Shown here: in pieces, positions 4,645 through 25,935 of the stretch | Numbering within the stretch: position 1 is the first letter of the stretch | How the letters are laid out: each line of letters starts with the position of its first letter | Source: a virus | DNA: 64,000 nt | Virus record (IMG/VR): IMGVR_UViG_3300017963_000014 | Coordinates: 1 to 64,000 of that record | Strand: one strand, 5' to 3' | Program-made: the position numbers and the translations under genes | Notes under the pieces: generated by a model | What the model saw: the letters and a program-made list of their open reading frames with translations, nothing else | What the model was told of the DNA's origin: nothing | Database searches by the model: none

Positions 4645-7512
4645 CTACCCCGCTCTATCCCGGATGCGCTTCGCCCGCGGAGCGCTACGGAGCTCCTCGA
4701 GGTCGGCCTCGAGGAGGATATCGCCCCTGTTCTCCCGGATCCGCGCGACCGCCTTCGAGACCCGCTTCGGGTCCGCGAGCCAGGTCCGGTAGCGGTCGAC
4801 GAGCTTCCGCCGACGAGCGCGACCCTTGATGAGCCACTTCGACCAGTCGATCACGGGGAAGCAGACCTCGAGGATCCGCTGCGAGGCGGGGAAGATCACG
4901 CGGTCCCAGTAGTACTCGGCGTCGTACGCGATCCCTCCGGCGGCGTCCTCGAAGTCACCCCGCGTTACGCCGGAGAGGTTCGGCTTCGTCCCGGTTACGA
5001 CGTACTCGACCTTCATTCCGACGTAGTACTCCCGCCCGGTCTCCCGAATCTCGGCCGCGAGCTTGACGTGCAGCGGCGTCGTCTTGTACCTCTCCGGGTC
5101 CTTCGATATCCCCTTCCCGATCGAGACCTCGTCGACGGAGAGCTCGCCCTCGGCGCAGCGTCGGAACTCCGGCTCGACGACCCCGCGCTCGATCTCGTCG
5201 CCCGAGAGTCCCTCCGTAAGGATCGCGTCCAGGACCCGCTGCTGGAGGCGGCGAGTCATCCCGGAGCAGTCGCTCCGCATCACCTCGAGGCCCTTAACCT
5301 CGACGTGATCCGTCTTCCCCCCCTTGTGGAGGAGCATCCTCCCGGCGTACCGCTTCTTAACGACGAAGAAGATCCGGTCGTAGACGTCCTCGAACTCGAG
5401 TTCGACCCGATTCCAGTCGAGGTTGCAGTTGAAGCCCCGGAGCTCCTCGAGGTAGCGCTCCTGGCAGTACGCGACGAAGCGGTTCCCGGCGTCGAGTATC
5501 TCCTCGATTCGGGCATCCTCGGAGGGCCAGGTCTTACCGGTCGGCGCGAGCTGAACGAAGACCGAGTCGGTGTCACCGTAGAGAACCGCGAACCCGTTCT
5601 CCTTCGCGTACCGCTCCGTTAGGCGGATGAAGTACCGCCCGCTGAGCGTGATCGCCTCCGCGAGCTCGGTGTCGTAGTACCGGGAGCGGGCGTTACCCAT
5701 GTCGCCGTAGAAGCTCAGCCCGAGGCGCTTGAACGAGTACGCGAGCCGGTAGTAGAGGAGGTAAAGGTCGTCCTGCGTCGTCCCGACCTCCTCGAGCCGC
5801 TTCCCCTGAAGGTCCGTGTACTTCTTCCGCCGCTCGAGCGTCCGGACGAACATCTGCGAGATATACCCCTCGCGGTCCCTCCGGAAGGTCGCGCCGCCCT
5901 TCTCGAGCGTCCCCCCGCCCTCGGTCTCGACCTCGACGAGGGGGCAGCGACAGAGCGAGTCCGGTCCGTTCTCCCGGAGGAACGCCTCGCGATCCTCGAG
6001 CTTGACGATCGTCTCGGGCGAGATGTTAAACGCTCGAACCATCGACGGGTAGAGACTCTTGAAATCTAAAGCCGCCACGTTCTCGTGCATCCCGACGACG
6101 GGGGGGAATACGTAGGCGCCCTCGTACTTCTCGGGCTCGGCGGAGGACCAGTACCGGGTCCGGAAGTGCTCCCCCTCCTTGTACCCCTTCTTTAGGAGGA
6201 GCTGGTCGATCTTCGTCGAGATGTTCCAGTCGTTCGCGAAGCCGTTCGCGATCCGGCAGAAGATCTGCTCGATCGAGACGAACCCCGTAAACTCCTCGAG
6301 CTTCCGGAGAATCCTCGCGTCGTACCGGTTATACTCCTCTAACAATTCGGGCTCGTACCGGTAGAGGTTGATAAACTTCGGTACCACCCCCGGGCGACGC
6401 TCACGGAAGGTCGTACGCCAGTCGATCTTCTGCATCTTCAGGACGCGCTCCCCGATCGAGTCGAGGGCGTAGGAGACGGCGTCCGCGCCCGCCCGCGTAT
6501 AATGCCGCTTGAAGACCGGTAGCGGGTCGGCGAAGAGGTGGTACCGCCAGTCGATCCAGATCCGGTGCTTCCGGAAGCGGTAGAAGATAACGGGAAAGTC
6601 GAATCCGAAACCGTTCCACGCGGCGAGGACGTCGTAGCGCTCGACGCACTCTCGCTTAAAGCGAAGGAGCATCTCCCGCTCGGCGGCGTCCGTCTCCTCC
6701 TCGAGTCGAAGGAACCCCGCGTCCGAGGGGTCGGAGTCGAAGCGGTCGCCCTCCCAGGCGATCGAGAGTATCCGGTTCTGCTCCTTCCTCTCGAACCCCC
6801 CGACGGTATCGTCGGTCTCGATGTCGAGAAACCCCATCCGGTACCGAGCCTGGATTTTTAAATCTACGTCCGTCAGGAACCGCTGCTTCGGCGTTAGGTC
6901 CGCCTCGAGAGGCTCAAGACCCTTCCGACGACACCACTCGACCGCCTCGTGAACAGGCTCCCACCGGTCGCGATCTCGGGGGAAGCGGAGCGCGCCCGGT
7001 CGCTCGCCGAGGAAGTAGGGGGTCGCCCAGCTAGAGGCGCGGTCGGGGTCCCCGACGTTCCGGAAGATCCGCTTGTGATCGATCTTCGGAACCCTCCGCG
7101 AGACGTAGACCCGTACGAACCTCTCGGGGTAGAGCGCGTCGGGCTCGACCCGCCGGGCGTGCCGACGGCAGAGCCAGTCCCAGCTCTCGCTCGGGATCCT
7201 CTCGAACTCCTCCCGCCGGAGGAGGAAGTACCACTCGAAGGGGTGAACCTCCTTAACCCGCCTCCCCGTCGCGGGGTCGCGGCGGAGGAGGACGACGTCC
7301 TCGCCCTCGGACCAGCCGTGGTAGTACTCCTTATCGGAGAAAAAGAACCGCTGGTCCTTCATCTCCTCGAAGTCGGCCGCGCTCTCGAGGTCGACCTCGT
7401 CGCGCGAGTCCCGAACCTCCTTCGAGTCGATCTCCTGTACGTAGAACTTCCGCTTCTCCGCGCCCGCGCCGAAGTCCCCTGCGATCCCCTGAGTGTCGGC
7501 GTCCCCGATCAG
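4645..7512 (-). CDS. Family B DNA polymerase with 3'-5' exonuclease
   Basis: Counted from the ATG at 7362, the 905-residue core has Exo I FLDIETD (D180, E182), Exo II NGFGFDFP (near 250), Exo III YNRYDARIL (D348), Pol A DFKSLYPSM (D433), and Pol C YGDTDSVFV (D597, D599). Motif B reads KRLGLSFYG, where the usual asparagine of KxxxNSxYG is replaced. Length and motif spacing resemble T4/RB69 gp43. The start is uncertain. The ATG at 7773 would overlap the glycosylase gene by 265 bases, a GTG lies at 7593, and a CTG at 7510-7512 overlaps its TGA. I give the last as a working start, and 7362 is the first unambiguous ATG. Confidence 0.93.
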   Translation of the reverse strand: MIGDADTQGIAGDFGAGAEKRKFYVQEIDSKEVRDSRDEVDLESAADFEEMKDQRFFFSDKEYYHGWSEGEDVVLLRRDPATGRRVKEVHPFEWYFLLRREEFERIPSESWDWLCRRHARRVEPDALYPERFVRVYVSRRVPKIDHKRIFRNVGDPDRASSWATPYFLGERPGALRFPRDRDRWEPVHEAVEWCRRKGLEPLEADLTPKQRFLTDVDLKIQARYRMGFLDIETDDTVGGFERKEQNRILSIAWEGDRFDSDPSDAGFLRLEEETDAAEREMLLRFKRECVERYDVLAAWNGFGFDFPVIFYRFRKHRIWIDWRYHLFADPLPVFKRHYTRAGADAVSYALDSIGERVLKMQKIDWRTTFRERRPGVVPKFINLYRYEPELLEEYNRYDARILRKLEEFTGFVSIEQIFCRIANGFANDWNISTKIDQLLLKKGYKEGEHFRTRYWSSAEPEKYEGAYVFPPVVGMHENVAALDFKSLYPSMVRAFNISPETIVKLEDREAFLRENGPDSLCRCPLVEVETEGGGTLEKGGATFRRDREGYISQMFVRTLERRKKYTDLQGKRLEEVGTTQDDLYLLYYRLAYSFKRLGLSFYGDMGNARSRYYDTELAEAITLSGRYFIRLTERYAKENGFAVLYGDTDSVFVQLAPTGKTWPSEDARIEEILDAGNRFVAYCQERYLEELRGFNCNLDWNRVELEFEDVYDRIFFVVKKRYAGRMLLHKGGKTDHVEVKGLEVMRSDCSGMTRRLQQRVLDAILTEGLSGDEIERGVVEPEFRRCAEGELSVDEVSIGKGISKDPERYKTTPLHVKLAAEIRETGREYYVGMKVEYVVTGTKPNLSGVTRGDFEDAAGGIAYDAEYYWDRVIFPASQRILEVCFPVIDWSKWLIKGRARRRKLVDRYRTWLADPKRVSKAVARIRENRGDILLEADLEELRSAPRAKRIRDRAG

Positions 7513-8108
7513 GGACGAGCCGGTTCGGAACCCCTCCCCCGGGGGAGGAGCGCCCTCCGCCAGTTCTCGGCCTCCGTCTCGAGGCGGGTCCACTTCCGGA
7601 GGGTCGCGTTCGGGTGCCGGAGGAGCGTCGCCTCCGCCGTCGTCCCCTCGACCGTCCTCCGGAGCCCGAAGTCGCTTAACCCGAGGGCGACGCCCGCCGC
7701 CCTCCCGAGGACGAGGACCGTCCGGAGGTTCGGGAGTTCGAGTAGTTCCCTTCGAAGGTACCGTTCGGCGCACGTCTCAAGCTCCATTGGGGTCGGGGCG
7801 CGGTTCCCGGGGGTCGCGCACTTCAGGGCGTTCGTCGCGTAGCATCGCCCGAGGTCGAGACCCGAGCGGTCGGCGAGCTCGAGGAAGGCCCGGGTCGAAC
7901 CAGTTAAGAGTACGGGTTCCCCGCCCCGCCTCCGGGTCTCCGCGAGGAGGGGGAGGAGGAAGCAGCCCTCGACCCCGTCCACGGCCCGCCGCGAGGGGTT
8001 GATCCCGACGACCACGACCTCCGCGTCGTCGGGTCCGACGCCGACGCAGCGGGGGAGGCCGGAGGAACCGAGGGTACAGGCTCGGCAGGGGCGGGGGTCG
8101 CACCTCAT
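7509..8108 (-). CDS. Family-4-like uracil-DNA glycosylase (Fe-S) with altered motif A
   Basis: The 199-residue protein has the family 4 cysteine pattern: C8 and C11 at the N-terminus, then NALKC (C97) followed by PGNRAP and C113, which should hold a 4Fe-4S cluster. The HPN at 165-167 matches the usual HPS motif. Motif A is VGINPS (34-39) in place of GEAPG, so the acidic residue of canonical enzymes is absent. It may still excise uracil, or may act on another base. It is coupled by four bases to the upstream ThyA-like gene and lies directly before the polymerase, fitting uracil exclusion or base modification. Confidence 0.8.
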   Translation of the reverse strand: MRCDPRPCRACTLGSSGLPRCVGVGPDDAEVVVVGINPSRRAVDGVEGCFLLPLLAETRRRGGEPVLLTGSTRAFLELADRSGLDLGRCYATNALKCATPGNRAPTPMELETCAERYLRRELLELPNLRTVLVLGRAAGVALGLSDFGLRRTVEGTTAEATLLRHPNATLRKWTRLETEAENWRRALLPRGRGSEPARP

Positions 8109-15352: not shown

Positions 15353-15376
15353 CTTGATCCTCCGTCTCTACTTTAC

Positions 15377-15413
15377 ATCTTATCAGATAGAAAGTATCTG
15401 TCTAGGGGTAAAA
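15377..15413 (-). promoter_or_regulatory. Promoter with palindromic operator, copy 1
   Basis: This 37-bp stretch is identical to 17047-17083. On the minus strand it contains TAGACA (15399-15404) and TAAGAT (15377-15382), 16 bases apart, which fit -35 and -10 boxes. The spacer is filled by a 6-bp inverted repeat with a 5-base gap, CAGATA/TATCTG (15384-15400). The palindrome lies between and partly within the boxes, as expected of an operator. Transcription would reach the recombinase, whose ATG has GGAGG upstream. The regulator that would bind is unknown. Confidence 0.6.
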
Positions 15414-15456
15414 GGAAGGGGGCGAAAGTTTCTCCCACCCTCTCCCCCACCCGGCT

Positions 15457-16935: not shown

Positions 16936-17046
16936 CGTTCGGCTCCTTTCCGGGACTCCGAAGGGTTCTCTATCCTCTTTAATCTGTTCTAATATCCTCC
17001 TCGCCCTCGCTATCCGCTCCGCCTTACTGAGCTTATCCATATTCTT

Positions 17047-17083
17047 ATCTTATCAGATAGAAAGTATCTGTCTAGGGGTAAAA
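17047..17083 (-). promoter_or_regulatory. Promoter with palindromic operator, copy 2
   Basis: The 37 bases are identical to 15377-15413 and again lie upstream of a gene, here the helicase. TAGACA and TAAGAT are 16 bases apart with the CAGATA/TATCTG palindrome (17054-17070) between. The predicted start falls at or near the ATG at 17038-17040. Upstream of it, the sequence to 17122 contains CCGTACAGAAACTTTCTATCC, which partly resembles half of the palindrome. Confidence 0.6.
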
Positions 17084-17122
17084 CGCCCCTCCGTACAGAA
17101 ACTTTCTATCCAAGATGAGCAG

Positions 17123-19135: not shown

Positions 19136-19399
19136 CTAGGGGTCCTCGCTCGGACCGAGCCCCCGGCGGGCGCGGAGCTTAAGCTCGTCACGAAAAGCAG
19201 ATAGAACCGTAGACGCGCTCCGCTCAGATACCCTCTTAGCCCGCTCGAAGTAGGGCCCCGGGTCGATCCGGAGGGAGTGAAACTCGGCGACGATAGAATC
19301 GAACGCTAAACGCCGCTTATCGAGACTGGAGAGGCAGACGGGCATCGCGTTTAAGCAGTCGCGGAGAATTCCTAGATTTAAAGATCCGATTTTCCCCAT
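19136..19399 (-). CDS. Hypothetical protein
   Basis: This 87-residue protein lies between primase and helicase genes and overlaps the helicase stop by one base. Its codon use is more A+T-rich than the neighbours (LNLGILRDCLNAMPVCLSSLD). No family is recognised. It may be a primase-helicase linker or a recent addition. Confidence 0.6.
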   Translation of the reverse strand: MGKIGSLNLGILRDCLNAMPVCLSSLDKRRLAFDSIVAEFHSLRIDPGPYFERAKRVSERSASTVLSAFRDELKLRARRGLGPSEDP

Positions 19400-20748
19400 T
19401 AGTCAGTCCGCTTCTCGAAGGTCGTCGACTCCTTCCCGATCCGGCAGACCTCGGGGTAGAACTCGAAGCCGACGACAACCTTCTGCGGCCCCCTCCGCTG
19501 CTTCGCGATCTCGACCTCGAGGATATCGTCCTCGGCCGCCTCCGGGTCGTAGTACTTCTCGCGGTGAATCAGGAGTACGAGGTCCGCGACCTCCTCGTAG
19601 CCGCCGGAGTTCTTCAGCTCGTGGAGCTGCGGCCGGAGGTTCGTCGACTTCTTCCCGATCCGCTTGTCGAGCCTCCGGATCTGGTGAACGACGACCGCGC
19701 AGAACTTCCGCCGCTTCGCGAGCTTCTTCAGGCGGCGGAGCGAGTCCGTAACGAGCGAGGGCTTCAGCTCGCCCTTCAGGAGGTACTCGTATATATCGAG
19801 AATTACTAGGTCGTAGCTCTCCTCCTCGACCCGGGCCTCGAGGTCGTCGAGCGAGTCGAGCTCGTCGTCGAAGGAGATGCACTCGTCGTCGAGGATCAGC
19901 TTCGCCGCCTTCTCGATCTTAAAGAGTTCCTCCTCCGTGAGCTGGTCCGGGGTCTTGATCAGCCGCTCCGCCTCGAGCTCGAGGTTCGCGCAGACCATCT
20001 GCTCGACGACCGAGTCCGTCCCCGCCTCGATCGGGGCGGAGAGGACCCGACGCTTCCTCCGGGACTGCCGGCGGGTAAGTACCGAACACAACGTACTTTT
20101 TCCCATACCGGGCCGACCGGCGAGGACGACGACGTCCCCCGGGCGGAGCCCGCGGTAGAGGTGCCGGTCGAGCGGCGTGAAGCCCGTCTCCCGGAAGTTC
20201 TCGGCGCGGTTCCGCGCGACGTCCTCGAGCCCCGCGAACCACTCCCGCCGGAGGCTCTCCCCGCGGCGGAGGCGGGCGTCCCTCCGTCCCTCCCGGAGCT
20301 TCCGGAGGACGCCGAGGGCGGAGGCCTCGGTCTCCGCGAGGTCCGCGTGCGGGTCCTCGAGGTTCGCGTAGAGCTCGGCGAAGTCGTCGGCGGTCCCCGC
20401 CTTCCGCGCGGCCCGGCGGACGAGCCCGAGGTGGAGCGCGAAGTTCCGCTCCGGGAGCGCGGCGAAGTTCCGCTCGAGGTCCGCGAGCCACTTCAGGGGG
20501 AGCTCGCCGTCCGAGAGCTGCGCCGCCGTGTCCCGCGCGTACGCCCCGCCGTCCGCGCGGATCCTCCGGAAGACCTCGACCGCCTTCCGGTTCCGGGGCG
20601 AGACGAACTCCTCCGGCCGGAGGCGGGGGAGCTCGCGGCGCCAGGTTTCGGGGTCGTTCGCGAGGGCGCCGAGGACGATAAGCTCGTTCTCGACGTCGAC
20701 GTCGAGCGAGAGCTCGGAGTTCCCGCGGGGTTTCCTCTCGTCGCTCAT
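19399..20748 (-). CDS. dnaB: DnaB-type replicative DNA helicase
   Basis: The 449-residue protein has the N-terminal helical domain (VENELIVLGALANDPETW, FVSPRNRKAVEVF), a linker, and a RecA-fold core with TGFTPLDRHLYRGLRPGDVVVLAG, Walker A GRPGMGKS (211-218), LVILDIYEYLL as Walker B, VVVHQIRRLDKR and LHELKNSGGYEEVADLVLLIHRE. These are all DnaB signatures. It forms the hexameric fork helicase. The next upstream gene is a DnaC-like loader overlapping by four bases, and primase lies two genes downstream. Confidence 0.93.
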   Translation of the reverse strand: MSDERKPRGNSELSLDVDVENELIVLGALANDPETWRRELPRLRPEEFVSPRNRKAVEVFRRIRADGGAYARDTAAQLSDGELPLKWLADLERNFAALPERNFALHLGLVRRAARKAGTADDFAELYANLEDPHADLAETEASALGVLRKLREGRRDARLRRGESLRREWFAGLEDVARNRAENFRETGFTPLDRHLYRGLRPGDVVVLAGRPGMGKSTLCSVLTRRQSRRKRRVLSAPIEAGTDSVVEQMVCANLELEAERLIKTPDQLTEEELFKIEKAAKLILDDECISFDDELDSLDDLEARVEEESYDLVILDIYEYLLKGELKPSLVTDSLRRLKKLAKRRKFCAVVVHQIRRLDKRIGKKSTNLRPQLHELKNSGGYEEVADLVLLIHREKYYDPEAAEDDILEVEIAKQRRGPQKVVVGFEFYPEVCRIGKESTTFEKRTD

Positions 20749-21380
20749 CTAGACCCCCGGAAGCTCGGGGCGGAGAAGACGATCGACTCGAACTCGTTCA
20801 GGAGGTCGCGGAAGCGCTCGGAGAGCCCGTCGTCGGAGTTGAGCGTGAGGATCGTCGGCGCCTCGAGCGCGAGCCGCCGCTCGATCGTCCGCTCGACGTA
20901 GTGCTCCTCCCCCCGGAACCCCTCGACCCGCGCGACGTCGTCGAGGACGAGGAGCGACGAGGTCTCGAGCCGCTCGCGGAGCGCCTCGCGCCGGTCCTCC
21001 TCCTCGTCGTCGCCCCTGCCGTAGAGCGCGCGGAAGCGGAGGTCGACGAGGTCGGACGCGGGGAGGAAGAGCGGGGCGGTCCGGAGGAAGACCGAGGGAA
21101 TCGAGGCGTAGTACTCGCGGAGTAGCCAGACGGCGGAGCGGGTCTTCCCGCTCCCGATCGAGCCCCGGAGCGCGAGGAGGACCGGCTCCTCCGCCGCGAC
21201 GAGTCGGTCGCGGGCGCGCTCGAGCTTCCGGAGCAGCCCGCGGTAGGCGTCCCGCTCCTTCGAGTCTCGGGGGAGGCTCATATCCGCGAGGTCGAGCCGC
21301 GCGAACTTCCGCGGCGCGTTCGTTCGGCGGACGAGGAGGCGGAGCCACTCGGGGGAGCCCCTCTCGGGTCGACGGTTCAA
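20745..21380 (-). CDS. DnaC-like AAA+ helicase loader
   Basis: The 211-residue protein has Walker A RGSIGSGKTRSAVWLL (72-87), a Walker B SLLVLDDVARVEG and a sensor-like strand APTILTLNSDD, followed by a short C-terminal helix. This is the AAA+ core of DnaC/DnaI loaders. It should place the DnaB ring on origin DNA. It sits between the helicase and initiator genes with four-base overlaps on each side. Confidence 0.85.
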   Translation of the reverse strand: MNRRPERGSPEWLRLLVRRTNAPRKFARLDLADMSLPRDSKERDAYRGLLRKLERARDRLVAAEEPVLLALRGSIGSGKTRSAVWLLREYYASIPSVFLRTAPLFLPASDLVDLRFRALYGRGDDEEEDRREALRERLETSSLLVLDDVARVEGFRGEEHYVERTIERRLALEAPTILTLNSDDGLSERFRDLLNEFESIVFSAPSFRGSR

Positions 21381-22546
21381 ATTATTCCCTCTTTCCTCCA
21401 GCGCTCGGTCTGCTTCCGCGACTCCTCCCGCCAGTAGGCGAGGTCCGCTCCGCGCTCGTCGTTAATCTCCCGGGGCGAGCGCTTACGCCCGCTCCCGGGG
21501 GTTCTATCCAGGGATGCGAGGACGCCGCCGTTGTACGGCGAACCGAAGAAGTACGCGAAGGCGACGGGCTTCCCCCGCGCCGGCGCGGTCGAGAGGACCT
21601 TATCGACGGCGGAGCGCCAGCGCTCTACGGATCCCTCGAGCTGCCGGTCTACGTACGCGCGGACGCCGTGAACCGCCCTCGACCCGTAGTTCCCCGAGCC
21701 GAAGGTCCCGCCGACGAAGTCGGGGTCCTCCCTCCCGAGGACCTCGCGGAAGCGGACGACCCAGTAGCCGACGAGGTCGGCGTTCCGCCAGGAGGCGTCG
21801 GAGTCCCTAGAGCGCCAGGCGAGGTACTCGGGGCGCTCGCTCGGGGTCTCCGCGTACTCCTCCCCCGATCCCGGTTTCGGGATCCTTCTCTTTCGCGGGG
21901 CGCCTTCCTTCTGAGTCGAGGCGGAAGCCGTCCCCCTCTTTCGCGAGGCGCTACCGTCGTCCTCGTAGGGTTCTTCGCCGGCGTCTGCCTCCGGGTCGAC
22001 GTCCCCCGGTTCCTCGAGCGCCGGCGGAGTCGGCGCCCGATCTCTACGGGTACTCTCTTCTACTACTCTCTTAGTGGTATCACCTCGATACCTATCACCT
22101 GTATCACCACGATACCGATCACCGGTATCGCCACGATACCTATCTGGACCGTCTTCCTCCTTTCCGTTTGCTAATACAGAATCTTTCTGTACAGCTTTCT
22201 GTACACGGGTAAGGAGAAGACTCTCCCCCTCCGCGGCGAGCCACTCGGGCCAGAGCGGGCGGTACTCGGTTAGCTTCCTCCCGCCGTCCCGGCGAATACG
22301 CACCTCGAGGAGTCCCTCGCGCTCGAGTTCCCGAACGACCCGGGGGAGGTTTCGACGGTCGATCCCTGAGATCTTCGAGAGTAGTCGGCTCGAGAGATGT
22401 CGGGTTCGGTCGCTTCGGAGGTAGGTGAAGATCCGGGTCCAGACGATCTTCGAGGCGACTCCGACCCGCTTGGTATCCGCGAGGGGTATCGGGTACTTCA
22501 AGAAGAGGTAATCGTCGGGCGAGTGCGGCGACTCAGTCCTCGACAT
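21377..22546 (-). CDS. Replication initiator with winged-helix domain and internal iterons
   Basis: The 389-residue protein has an N-terminal winged helix (about 20-110: KIVWTRIFTYL, SGIDRRNLPRVVRELEREGLLEVR, LWPEWLAAEG). A charged linker contains a threefold repeat of GDRYRGDT-type units (about 130-160), and a C-terminal region after 240 (WRNADLVGYWVVRFREVL) resembles phage initiators that contact a helicase loader. The repeat is encoded by the 24-bp iterons at 22076-22147. The order initiator, loader, helicase and the internal repeats parallel lambda O. The N-terminal domain is related to the two next small genes. Confidence 0.8.
   Translation of the reverse strand: MSRTESPHSPDDYLFLKYPIPLADTKRVGVASKIVWTRIFTYLRSDRTRHLSSRLLSKISGIDRRNLPRVVRELEREGLLEVRIRRDGGRKLTEYRPLWPEWLAAEGESLLLTRVQKAVQKDSVLANGKEEDGPDRYRGDTGDRYRGDTGDRYRGDTTKRVVEESTRRDRAPTPPALEEPGDVDPEADAGEEPYEDDGSASRKRGTASASTQKEGAPRKRRIPKPGSGEEYAETPSERPEYLAWRSRDSDASWRNADLVGYWVVRFREVLGREDPDFVGGTFGSGNYGSRAVHGVRAYVDRQLEGSVERWRSAVDKVLSTAPARGKPVAFAYFFGSPYNGGVLASLDRTPGSGRKRSPREINDERGADLAYWREESRKQTERWRKEGII
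22076..22205. other. Candidate replication origin: iterons plus A+T-richer stretch
   Basis: Three 24-bp repeats lie head to tail at 22076-22099, 22100-22123 and 22124-22147. Each holds a GGTATC/GATACC-type inverted repeat with a five-base gap. They are followed by an A+T-richer stretch with two copies of CTTTCTGTACA (22183-22193 and 22195-22205). All lie inside the initiator gene, as in lambda. The gene's own winged helix is the likely binder. Confidence 0.65.
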
Positions 22547-22886
22547 AGAGCACCTCCTCCCGGAGAAAGCGCTTCCCCTCCTCAGCGATCCAGTCGGGCC
22601 AGAGGAGGCGGTACTCGACGATACCCGCGGTCTCGGTCTCCCCGACCTCGAGGAGACTCAACTCCCGGAGCTCCCCGATAGCCTCCTCGACCTCCGCTCG
22701 CTCGAGCCCGAGAGTCTCCTCTAGGTACCTCGCCGGGAGGGGTTCCTCGTCGCTCGGGTAGAGGAGGCGCGTGTGGATCGCGGACCAGACCTTCGAGGCA
22801 TTCCTTCCGACGCGCTCGCTCGTCGCGAGCGGGAGCGGGACCTCTAGGTGCTGGTAATCGACGGCGGCGGCGCTACGCGGTGGCAT
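22533..22886 (-). CDS. Small winged-helix protein, paralogue of the initiator N-terminus
   Basis: This 117-residue protein is a winged helix alone: LPLATSERVGRNASKVWSAI, then LGLERAEVEEAIGELRELSLL and RLLWPDWIAEEGKRFL. The three blocks match residues 16-110 of the initiator (IPLADTKRVGVASKIVWTRI, LWPEWLAAEGESLL). It probably binds DNA near the origin or tunes initiator expression. It overlaps both neighbouring genes by 14 bases. Confidence 0.75.
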   Translation of the reverse strand: MPPRSAAAVDYQHLEVPLPLATSERVGRNASKVWSAIHTRLLYPSDEEPLPARYLEETLGLERAEVEEAIGELRELSLLEVGETETAGIVEYRLLWPDWIAEEGKRFLREEVLYVED

Positions 22887-23214
22887 CCTCGACCTCCGTC
22901 TCCGAGACCGCCCGGAGGGCGGCGAGGACGCGCTCGCGGGTACCGGGGGCGAGCCAGTCGGGGAAGAGCGGCTCGAGGTCGACGAGGCGCCCGGAGCGGC
23001 GCCTACGAAGGGCGAGGAGTCCCTCGGCCTCGAGGCGGCGGGAGAGTTTGCAGGCCTGCGAGGCGGGCATCCCCGCGCGGCGCCCGACCTCGGAGAGGGT
23101 CAGCGCGACCTCGGGGTCGCGGTACTTCGCCTCGAGCGCGACGCCCCAGAGGATGGCCGGGCTCCGGCGGACTCGTTCGAGGATATCGAGCGGTATCGAG
23201 ACGACGGTAGGCAT
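22873..23214 (-). CDS. Third winged-helix paralogue, possible early regulator
   Basis: I choose the ATG at 23214 because GGGAGG lies ten bases before it. A GTG at 23223 would leave no spacing. The 113-residue protein again shows SIPLDILERVRRSPAILWG, a LSEVGRRAGMPASQACKLSRRLEAEGLL helix-turn-helix and LEPLFPDWLAPG. It is the first gene after the control region and so may bind its repeats. It has diverged more than the second copy. Confidence 0.75.
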   Translation of the reverse strand: MPTVVSIPLDILERVRRSPAILWGVALEAKYRDPEVALTLSEVGRRAGMPASQACKLSRRLEAEGLLALRRRRSGRLVDLEPLFPDWLAPGTRERVLAALRAVSETEVEDATA

Positions 23215-23252
23215 CTTTCTCACTCCTCCCTACAGTTGAATACTTTAGCCCT

Positions 23253-23281
23253 TTTACCCCGAGGTACTACCTTACTAATAG
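23253..23281 (+). promoter_or_regulatory. Candidate rightward promoter of the small RNA
   Basis: TTTACC (23253-23258) and TAATAG (23276-23281) are 17 bases apart. The block CTTTTACCCC at its left also begins the 37-bp promoter elements at 15377 and 17047 when those are read in their own direction. The -10 box is weak, so this promoter is supported mainly by the strong terminator downstream. Confidence 0.45.
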
Positions 23282-23287
23282 TGAAAT

Positions 23288-23417
23288 GTAAATAGGGACT
23301 AGCGCCCGCCCGCGGACCGCGGTATAACCTCGGGGTCGACGGCGCGCGAGAACGCGCCGCACTCCTTCGGGTGGGAACCCCCGGTCGTCCAGAGAGTCGA
23401 CCGGGGGTTTCGTTTTT
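23288..23417 (+). ncRNA. Candidate structured small RNA on the plus strand
   Basis: The only plus-strand transcription unit that I find spans about 130 bases from the promoter at 23253-23281 to a strong intrinsic terminator. It has no open reading frame. It contains stem-loops at CCGCGGACCGCGG and GGCGCGCGAGAACGCGCC before the terminator. Bases 23326-23340 can also pair with the 3' arm of the terminator, giving an alternative fold. Its place upstream of the initiator operon, transcribed away from it, resembles OOP RNA of lambda. Function and exact ends are inferred. Confidence 0.5.
23376..23417 (+). terminator. Strong intrinsic terminator, plus strand
   Basis: AACCCCCGGTCG (23376-23387) and CGACCGGGGGTT (23398-23409) form a perfect 12-bp stem with a ten-base loop, followed by TCGTTTTT. 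Read leftward the stem is followed by CCCACC, so it acts only for rightward RNA. Confidence 0.85.
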
Positions 23418-23425
23418 CTACCACC

Positions 23426-23507
23426 CCGCCGTCCGTTTCTCGGGGGGAACGTTGCAAACCCGTTGTCCGCCGTCCGCTTCTCGGGGGGAACGTTGCAAAA
23501 CCGTTGC
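23426..23507. repeat. Two 41-bp direct repeats
   Basis: Units 23426-23466 and 23467-23507 match at 38 of 41 positions and touch without a spacer. Each holds GGGGGGAACGTTGCAAA, with the palindrome AACGTT and two GTTGC words. They may be binding sites for one of the winged-helix proteins or iterons. With two units and no spacer they are not a CRISPR array. Confidence 0.85.
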
Positions 23508-23523
23508 CCGTATACTTCGCGTT

Positions 23524-23838
23524 CTACCAGATCTTCTCGACCTCGTCTCCGTCGCCCTCTGCCTCCTGGATAAAGGTCTCGCAGGCGGGGCAGTAACCGG
23601 AGTTCCCCCCGAGGACGGGTTCTAAGCAGCCGGGGTAGTCGCAGAGGCGGACGCACGGGAGCCGCCGTATCTTCGCGTGGAAGTACCTCCCCGCGCTCGG
23701 CGCCTCGAGCAGGCAGAAGGCCTCCTCCGCCGCGCCGGGGTAGCGGTAGCGGGCGCCGGAGCGGAAGCGGACGAGGAGGTCCTCGCCGTCGACCGCGACC
23801 GCCGCGAGGTTCGAACTCTCGACCTTGACGGCCTTCAC
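23524..23838 (-). CDS. KTSC-domain protein with a zinc-binding tail
   Basis: Residues 1-60 fit the KTSC domain: VESSNLAAVAVDGEDLLVRFRSGARYRY and APSAGRYFHAKI. The rest carries a four-cysteine cluster (CDYPGC near 70, CPAC near 88) and an acidic end. KTSC domains are common in phages and near nucleic-acid enzymes, but their role is unknown. It is followed by the control region and overlaps the next gene upstream by four bases. Confidence 0.7.
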   Translation of the reverse strand: MKAVKVESSNLAAVAVDGEDLLVRFRSGARYRYPGAAEEAFCLLEAPSAGRYFHAKIRRLPCVRLCDYPGCLEPVLGGNSGYCPACETFIQEAEGDGDEVEKIW

Positions 23839-24323
23839 TTTATACCTCCCTCCGCCTCCCGGGCCTCCGCCGCGAGCTCCCGCGCCCGCCCGGCGACGAT
23901 CCGCTCGAGCGCGGGGGCGAGGAGGAAGAGCGCGTTCGCCTTCCCCCAGGGGGAGAGGCGGGCCCAGCGGATAGCTATCGAACCGAGTTCGACCCGGTAG
24001 GGGGCGGAGCGGTTACTGTCTACGGTTAGGATCGAGAGGACGACCTCGAGAACTCGGTACGCTCCGAGCGCGAGGACGTCCGCGGCGAACCGCTCGGTCC
24101 GCGCGCGGGAGTAGACCTCGCGGAAGCGCGGGCAGTCTCCGGCGTCCTCGGAGAAGGTCGACTCCCGGCAGTCCTCGACGAACTCGCAGTTCCCGCAGTC
24201 GAGCTCGAGGGGCGCTCGCTGCGCGTCCTCCTCGAAGACGAATCCCTCGAGCTCCTCCTGGACGGAGTAAACCCGCCCTCCCGCGGGGGCGGCGGTCCTC
24301 GAGTCCTCCAACTTATCGCCCAT
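23835..24323 (-). CDS. Hypothetical cysteine-cluster protein
   Basis: The 162-residue protein has LDCGNCEFVEDCRES (cysteines near 43, 46, 52) and a fourth cysteine in GDCPRF, which could bind zinc or an Fe-S cluster. The last 80 residues are helical. It overlaps the UvsW-like helicase gene by 11 bases and may be its partner. No family recognised. Confidence 0.65.
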   Translation of the reverse strand: MGDKLEDSRTAAPAGGRVYSVQEELEGFVFEEDAQRAPLELDCGNCEFVEDCRESTFSEDAGDCPRFREVYSRARTERFAADVLALGAYRVLEVVLSILTVDSNRSAPYRVELGSIAIRWARLSPWGKANALFLLAPALERIVAGRARELAAEAREAEGGIK

Positions 24324-25935
24324 CGTTCACCTCCAGCTCCCGGAGGATCTCGCTCGTCAGCTGGACCCGCTCGCCCGGTCTCTCCGAGTACCAGACCCGG
24401 TGCGGGGGCTTGACCGCGTTCGCGACCGCCCGCGCGTGCCCCGGGAGGACGAGGCGGTCCCAGAAGTAGAAGTAGATCGCGTCCGCTTTTCCCGGACTCG
24501 GCCGCTTGAACCGCCCGAACTGCTGCGTAAATCGCCCCGCGTTCGCGGCCGCTGGCGTGCAGCCGAAGCCGCGGTCGAGCCGCGGAACGTCGAGCCCCTC
24601 GTCCGCTACGGAGGTCCCGACCGCGACCCGGAGCGAGCCGTCCTCGAGGCCGGCGGCGACCCGGTCCTGCTCGCGGGCGTCCCGGCCGCCCATCAGGCGG
24701 CCGACCTCGACGCTCCGGCGCTTAAGCCAGGCCTGGAGCTCGAGGCAGAGCTCGCGGCGGTCGGCGAGGAGGAGGCAGCTCCGCCCGGCCCGGACCTCCG
24801 GGAGGAGGTACTCGAGGATCCGCGCGCGCCGGAGCGGGTCGCGGGTCGCCTCCTCGAGGAGGTCCGCGTAGGTGTTCAGCGGACCGCGCCACTTCGTCGC
24901 CCTCGCCCACCTCCGGGCGGCGGAGACCGCGTTCTCGCGCTCGAGCCGCTCGAAGCCCTCGGCCGCTAGGCGACGCTCCCAGTTCAGGTCGAACTCGAGC
25001 TCGGTCGGGACTAAGACGACGTCGACCGGGACGACCCGCCCGGCGCGGTCGAGGTCCTCGTCCCGGATCTCGAAGAGGACCCGCGGGCGCCGACTCGAGA
25101 GCGCGGGCCCCGGGACCTCCTCCCCGAAGACCTGCGCCGTGAACGGCTCCCGCCCGTCCCGCCGCTTGAGCGTCGCGGTCGCGCCGAAGCGGTTCCGCGC
25201 CGGGAGGGAGTTCACGACCTCGGAGAAGGAGTTAGCCGGCGCGTGGTGGACCTCGTCGAGGATCACGGTACCGAAGCGCCGCCCCCAGGCGGGGTCCGCC
25301 TTCAGGCGGTTCCGGACGGAAGGGATCAGACCGATAAGGATCAGACCGTCTCGCTTCGCCTTCCCGTAGAGGACGCCGACCGCGCGCTCCCGGAGCCCGT
25401 AGTGCTCGGCCGCGCGCTCGACCCACTGCCGGAGGATCCGCTCCGTGTGGCAGAGCACTAGCGTCCGCTCCCCGAGCTCGGCCGCGACCGCGAGGAGGAT
25501 AGTGGTTTTGCCTGCCCCACACGGAGCGAGCAGTAGCCCCGCGCGCCGGCGGACGAGCGCCCGGACCGCGCTCCGCTGGTCCGCCCCGAGCTCCCAGCCC
25601 CCCGGGGTCCGGAAGCGGAGCCCGGTCGGTCCGGTCTCGCGGACGGTTCGGTCGACGACCGGGAAGAGCCCGGCGCCCGCTCGCCGCGCGAGGAGGCGGA
25701 GGACCGCGAGCCGGCCGCGGGGGAGGACGAGGAGGTCCGGTCCGTCGCGCTCGACGAGGGAGAGCGCGCGGGGGACGTTCCCGGTCCAGAGCCCCATCGA
25801 CCGCTTCTTGAAGTACTCCGGGTTCGCGACCTCGAACGCCTCCGTAAGCTCCCGGACCGAGAGCCCCGCGACCTTCAGTACGGAGCGGCGGACCCGGAGG
25901 CGGGAGTCGACGACGACCTCGATCGTGTTTCTCAT
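24313..25935 (-). CDS. Superfamily 2 helicase (UvsW/XPB-like)
   Basis: The 540-residue protein has SF2 motifs: GADQRSAVRALVRR as a Q-motif-like start, Walker A LAPCGAGKTTILL (137-149), VLCHTERILRQWVERA as Ia, VILDEVHHAPANSF (motif II, DEVH), FGATATLKRRDG (III), SCLLLADRRELCLEL (IV) and VAVGTSVADEGLDVPRLDRGFG (V), then QQFGRFKRPSPGKADAIYFYF (VI). GATATLKRRDG points to the XPB/UvsW group, which remodels forks and R-loops and directs recombination-dependent replication. It starts the replication block after the accessory genes. Confidence 0.9.
   Translation of the reverse strand: MRNTIEVVVDSRLRVRRSVLKVAGLSVRELTEAFEVANPEYFKKRSMGLWTGNVPRALSLVERDGPDLLVLPRGRLAVLRLLARRAGAGLFPVVDRTVRETGPTGLRFRTPGGWELGADQRSAVRALVRRRAGLLLAPCGAGKTTILLAVAAELGERTLVLCHTERILRQWVERAAEHYGLRERAVGVLYGKAKRDGLILIGLIPSVRNRLKADPAWGRRFGTVILDEVHHAPANSFSEVVNSLPARNRFGATATLKRRDGREPFTAQVFGEEVPGPALSSRRPRVLFEIRDEDLDRAGRVVPVDVVLVPTELEFDLNWERRLAAEGFERLERENAVSAARRWARATKWRGPLNTYADLLEEATRDPLRRARILEYLLPEVRAGRSCLLLADRRELCLELQAWLKRRSVEVGRLMGGRDAREQDRVAAGLEDGSLRVAVGTSVADEGLDVPRLDRGFGCTPAAANAGRFTQQFGRFKRPSPGKADAIYFYFWDRLVLPGHARAVANAVKPPHRVWYSERPGERVQLTSEILRELEVNDGR

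Follow-up and report, generated by a model that had tools for sequence, protein, structure and literature searches.

In phage lambda, the promoter pO lies at the start of gene O, faces pR and yields the OOP RNA, and the replication origin is located inside O itself (PMC3985674). When pO is lost, more of the transcription from pR enters O-P and the origin, and replication suffers, whereas the OOP RNA itself leaves the stability of the O-P mRNA unchanged (PMC3985674). Phage cis-antisense RNAs such as P22 sar, lambda aQ and the asRNAs of PAK_P4 are likewise small counter-transcripts on the mRNAs that they cross (PMC12197685). These last act on named genes, whereas the candidate unit considered here lies wholly in a non-coding gap.

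The DNA analysed (hereafter the window) consists of bases 1-64000 of the 101,796-bp virus record IMGVR_UViG_3300017963_000014, which has a GC content of 69% and the proteins of which include a tail sheath, tape measure, portal, terminase, DNA polymerase, primase, DnaB and a DnaC-like loader; the source phage is a myovirus and its host is probably bacterial. To our knowledge, no phage counter-transcript beside a replication operon was previously known in this phage group. All of the window's predicted genes point leftward, and it contains neither a tRNA nor an Rfam family at the gathering threshold. A prior sequence-only reading had proposed a rightward small RNA as the only rightward unit in 64 kb, in a region with no rightward gene: this holds for the window, but the same record does carry rightward genes at 67220-67948 and 71735-74143, both beyond it.

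The gap in question is bounded on its right by the gene for a KTSC-domain protein (23524-23838, minus strand; Pfam PF13619), upstream of which a ResIII-type helicase was recognised by protein annotation (24313-25935, minus), and on its left by the gene for a small winged-helix protein (22873-23214, minus) with a weak MarR/IclR-like match below the Pfam cut-offs. There then follow a small protein akin to the N-terminal domain of the initiator of a relative, L015 (22533-22886, minus; tblastn 33%), a predicted replication initiator with a winged-helix N-terminal domain (21377-22546, minus; AlphaFold pLDDT 83.6), a DnaC-like helicase loader (20745-21380, minus; PHROG 50 and 3277) and a DnaB-like replicative helicase (19399-20748, minus; Pfam PF03796, PHROG 19). 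Foldseek neighbours of the N-terminal domain of the initiator comprised winged-helix regulators, RepA-type initiators (4pql, 5kbj, 4pt7), the DnaD N-terminal domain (2v79) and phage replication initiators. A repeat search located three 24-bp dyad repeats within the initiator gene (22076-22148, minus), each of the form GTATCGNGGNGATAC, and the initiator genes of four other lineages likewise contain tandem repeats, with different sequences. The window's repeats are probably origin iterons of the lambda-O type, and the putative origin is situated about 1.2 kb from the gap. The suggestion that the place of the unit beside the initiator operon recalls that of OOP was thus borne out by position, the operon being made up of an initiator gene that has iterons inside it, followed by the genes for a DnaC-like loader and DnaB. 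A protein-coding function for the gap was rejected, codon scores being negative in all six frames, including that of a 129-aa ORF at 23267-23656.

The gap contains a hairpin with a perfect 12-bp stem (AACCCCCGGTCG/CGACCGGGGGTT, 23376-23387/23398-23409, plus strand) and a loop of 10 nt, followed by the T tract TTTCGTTTTT (23408-23417, plus). Nine of the 12 pairs are G-C, the tail on the rightward strand is TCGTTTTTCT, and TTTCGTTTTTCT stands directly after the stem, as in an intrinsic (Rho-independent) terminator. When the record (101,796 bp, both strands) was searched for perfect stems of 8 bp or longer followed by a T-rich tail, this hairpin was the sole match, equivalent to one site per 204 kb of strand, and the same search of local shuffles returned none. 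When all T-rich tails were ranked by folding energy, the hairpin (-26.0 kcal/mol) was surpassed in the record solely by an irregular 49-nt fold within a coding region at 83326. A stock terminator scan overlooked the hairpin because its loop limit is 8 nt, which the 10-nt loop exceeds. The perfect stem and the T-run usable by rightward RNA only, both claimed at the outset, were therefore upheld by the location of the T tract on the rightward strand and by the uniqueness of the match; deployment of the hairpin as a leftward terminator was rejected, its leftward side having no T tract in the window. The orientation is evident from the sequence, and we consider with high confidence, on the evidence of the sequence and its predicted folding, that the rightward terminator is real.

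Relatives were found with the terminase for the structural module, and with the SF1 helicase, ResIII helicase and DnaB for the replication module, which together gave five syntenic lineages: the window, L015 (G011), L018 (G014), L131 and L132/L133. All five exhibit a common order of ResIII helicase, KTSC, (small winged-helix genes), initiator, DnaC-like loader, DnaB and primase. In L015, the DnaB of which is 57% identical to that of the window, the gap between KTSC and initiator genes is about 125 nt and energy ranking identified a counterpart hairpin of -25.2 kcal/mol at 5155-5192 on the minus strand, corresponding to the window's plus strand. This hairpin comprises 10 pairs, one mismatch and 4 pairs, and its tail is GGGTTTCCTTTTTCT. 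No canonical terminator in that genome is stronger, and it occupies the same gap in the same orientation as the window's; the chance of the strongest terminator falling in a gap-sized target on one strand is p ~6e-4. The two tails have GGGTTTCSTTTTTCT in common and align as GGGTTTC[G/C]TTTTTCT with a score of 26 versus 17.6 ± 2.5 for shuffles, 0.8% of which reach it, and beyond terminator and tail no clear common sequence was found between the window and L015 RNAs. The gap terminator is absent in L018, L131 and L132/L133, where the gaps measure only 70, 57 and 99 nt respectively, and lengths of 57-99 nt in these element-less relatives are as expected inside one operon. The gap element is thus patchy, being present in two of the five lineages and missing from L018 even though this is the closest to the window in several proteins; its absence from three lineages, L018 included, implies that it is dispensable. 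Such patchiness would fit a chance hairpin, an explanation that is nonetheless highly improbable given the shuffle and scan frequencies above, the location in a non-coding gap and the counterpart in the orthologous gap; a relic or chance origin is unlikely because the position is common to one diverged relative.

Further searches for relatives yielded little. Searching the region's DNA in the relatives gave chance words only, no comparable element was found in the low-GC distant DnaB relatives L136 and L137, the SF1 helicase retrieved only distant helicases from bacterial genomes, and single-protein searches with DnaB or the small winged-helix protein returned no relatives. Some separate observations were made on the relatives themselves. 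A perfect 10-bp hairpin with a TTTTA tail, directed against the genes and adjoining the iterons inside the initiator gene, is present in L018 at 4889-4911 (minus), and is given little weight because it is located within coding sequence. L018 also carries large, intein-like in-frame insertions at 1514-2430 (ResIII helicase) and 6877-7829 (DnaB), and the L015 polymerase match is split in a similar way.

Two repeat structures flank the hairpin. Just right of the terminator, a repeat search located two 41-bp direct repeats (23426-23507) with the dyad AACG-N9-CGTT, which are found nowhere else in the record, constitute its highest-scoring tandem array and, together with the iterons of the initiator gene, make up its top two. 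To the left, a 16-bp inverted repeat of 88% identity has its arms at 23256-23271 and 23321-23336, and could be an operator or, given an earlier RNA start, a closing helix. The gap thus houses both this inverted repeat and the top-scoring tandem array, the unit of which has a dyad, and a replication origin is probably some 1.2 kb away. This would suit a DNA-level element with an incidental T tract, the repeats serving as operators or as an accessory part of the origin, whether through protein binding, hairpin extrusion or priming on single strands. We regard this as improbable, since the T tract, for which a DNA hairpin has no need, is on the same side of the hairpin and in nearly the same letters in the window and L015, and both the 41-bp repeats and the inverted-repeat arm are absent in G011.

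The sequence-only reading had also placed a promoter-like element at the right distance from the terminator. This was not sustained by scoring against the sigma-70 consensus, since the best plus-strand score of the region was reached by 34% of its shuffles, and the gap was no better than shuffles on either strand. The phage does possess a repeated promoter-like element of the form TTTTMCCYCTRGACARATACTTTCTATCTGATAAGAT, which occurs six times in near-identical form, four of the copies pointing leftward and two rightward: repeat comparison located P1 (15361-15421, minus) and P2 (17031-17091, minus) within the window, and the remaining copies at record positions 69204-69264 (minus), 70661-70721 (minus), 71684-71744 (plus) and 72575-72635 (plus). 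Its layout is TGGACA/TAGACA-16-TAAGAT with an extended -10 and a conserved spacer containing the dyad AGATACTTTCTATCT, and in most copies a start codon lies 7-9 nt past the -10, as for leaderless mRNA. The element is also conserved in relatives, occurring 10 times in G011 and 3 times in G014, and is therefore a family trait; a DNA search for its core in viral contigs gave seven low-GC chance matches and was set aside. At 15418-15448 and 17061-17105 (both minus; regions 15353-15456 and 17041-17122), promoter elements are overlapped or preceded by weak hairpins that resemble terminators. The word GTACAGAAA, possibly a regulator site, recurs at 22183-22205 in the window (two tandem copies near the iterons) and at record positions 17093 (plus), 70741 (minus) and 76666 (minus), near promoter elements.

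Smith-Waterman comparison with P1, the closest copy, revealed a diverged rightward copy of the element, Q, at 23249-23301 (plus), which the 16-bp inverted repeat overlaps. The alignment score of 38 was reached by none of 1000 shuffles (14.5 ± 2.8), Q was the genome's top match to P1 outside the six element copies, and the three occurrences of TTTTACCCC in the genome are those in P1, P2 and Q. With respect to a promoter of its own, such as OOP possesses, the unit combines this significant likeness with decayed hexamers (-35 CGAGGT, -10 TGAAAT) and the chance-level sigma-70 score. These comparisons lend good support to the view that Q descends from a rightward promoter element, though not to its present activity, which is inferred. 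The only notable promoter-like site in the L015 gap is also rightward (TAGACG-17-TACCGT, extended -10, score 7.2 versus 1.7 in the other direction), and the distance from predicted start to start codon is 66-81 nt in L015 (initiator) and about 80 nt in the window (first gene).

These rightward sites are pertinent to a reading in which there is no dedicated small RNA, and the hairpin simply stops stray rightward transcripts, originating in the promoter region or within the initiator operon, before they become antisense to the helicase genes. Such a function would be served by a strong terminator just ahead of the end of the next gene (the L015 copy overlaps the last codons of the KTSC gene) and would be compatible with sigma-70 scores nearby at chance; it leaves unexplained both the rightward element copy, which precedes the hairpin by about 80 nt, and the rightward promoter-like site of L015, and no second such site exists anywhere in the genome. 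We consider it a somewhat unlikely account of the locus.

With its start taken from Q and its end from the T tract, the predicted small RNA would extend from 23294 to 23417 (plus, ~124 nt), and a discrete rightward RNA of this kind is probably made. The overall fold has a z-score of -4.3 because of the terminator, the part upstream (23294-23374) being on its own no more folded than its composition predicts (z = -0.2); classification as a structured RNA by z-score was rejected, the signal coming from the terminator alone. An RNA starting instead near 23256 could form a 10-bp closing helix (z = -2.2 without the terminator), but its start would then fall upstream of the promoter copy Q. The further proposal of an alternative fold without termination was found to hold in part: a pairing of 23326-23340 with the 3' arm of the terminator can indeed be drawn (duplex -11.8 kcal/mol), but when forced it gives -53.2 versus -66.3 kcal/mol and hence costs 13.1 kcal/mol. 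An attenuator or riboswitch with two exclusive folds was rejected, there being no alternative of comparable energy, and given that penalty and no sign of conservation the anti-terminator idea is weak. Rfam searches at gathering and lax thresholds produced nothing but sub-threshold terminator shapes, the best scoring 22.2 bits (threshold 55) and 18.4 bits (threshold 70), and a blastn search of 22600-24300 against 50,697 phage records gave no match.

One segment of the predicted RNA, CACUCCUUC (near 23361), could form nine contiguous pairs, one of them G-U, with GGGAGGAGUG at the ribosome-binding site of the first gene of the initiator operon. A base-pairing small RNA, acting in trans or on that gene, would then lower its translation, a role to which we assign a low probability: by a hand estimate, an RNA of this size should by chance contain an equally long match to a purine-rich ribosome-binding site, and the target gene is absent from L015.

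The reading that we prefer, albeit tentatively and with slightly less than even confidence, is that of a pO-like counter-transcript that works against leftward transcription entering the initiator operon. Polymerase would start at Q, near 23294, heading away from the initiator genes, and be released at the hairpin and T tract (23376-23417), short of the KTSC gene. Were leftward transcription to read through across the gap, the rightward RNA of ~125 nt would be exactly antisense to the segment of leftward mRNA that links the helicase and KTSC genes with those of the initiator operon. The unit would most likely act mainly in cis, through opposing polymerases and possibly an RNA duplex, so that fewer leftward transcripts would reach the operon and the putative iteron origin within its initiator gene, much as pO acts on transcription from pR in lambda, and in this way replication might be affected; the unit's own terminator would keep rightward transcription short. 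The role in lysogeny raised by the sequence-only reading found no footing, with no integrase or CI-like repressor among the proteins scanned, which represented part of the gene set.

Compared with known systems, the counter-transcript so proposed resembles lambda OOP in its shortness, in its place between the preceding gene and the initiator operon, in pointing away from the initiator and in ending, as judged by sequence and energy, at an intrinsic terminator; as in lambda O-ori-P, putative iterons are located inside the initiator gene and a helicase loader comes next in the operon. By way of contrast, no homology to oop was found (no blastn match in the phage collection and no Rfam match), the phage, a myovirus not related to lambda, has a polymerase, primase and DnaB of its own, two small genes separate the unit from the initiator, and no cII-like target or lysogeny gene was seen. 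Whereas OOP is antisense to the 3' end of cII, the window's RNA would end at about 23417, 107 nt short of the end of the KTSC gene at 23524, and it is in L015 that the hairpin overlaps the KTSC end. The unit is not filed as OOP because no homology to oop was found and it does not overlap a cII-like gene, although it may work like pO/OOP. Within its own family it resembles the terminator-promoter pairs, in which weaker hairpins with T-rich tails stand ahead of promoter elements (15418-15448, minus, in the window; 19255-19283 in G011), but those are oriented with the genes and come before the promoter, while the gap hairpin faces against the genes and comes after the element copy.

The phage-wide promoter element and the iteron-like repeats in the initiator genes of five lineages provide handles for this uncultured group. 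It is conceivable, though we would give it limited credence, that counter-transcription at lambda-type origins arose more than once, that a lineage unrelated to lambda built its own equivalent of pO/OOP from its own promoter element and, taking the L018 hairpin into account, that control of operon-opposing transcription near the origin is a general design rule. If the RNA is made, the lambda arrangement, in which opposing transcription stands next to an origin embedded in the initiator gene, would have a second, independent example in this large myovirus. As no cII-like gene turned up in this phage, the comparison would also help to distinguish the general feature of pO/OOP, interference with transcription at the origin, from the antisense control of cII and lysogeny, which is particular to lambda.
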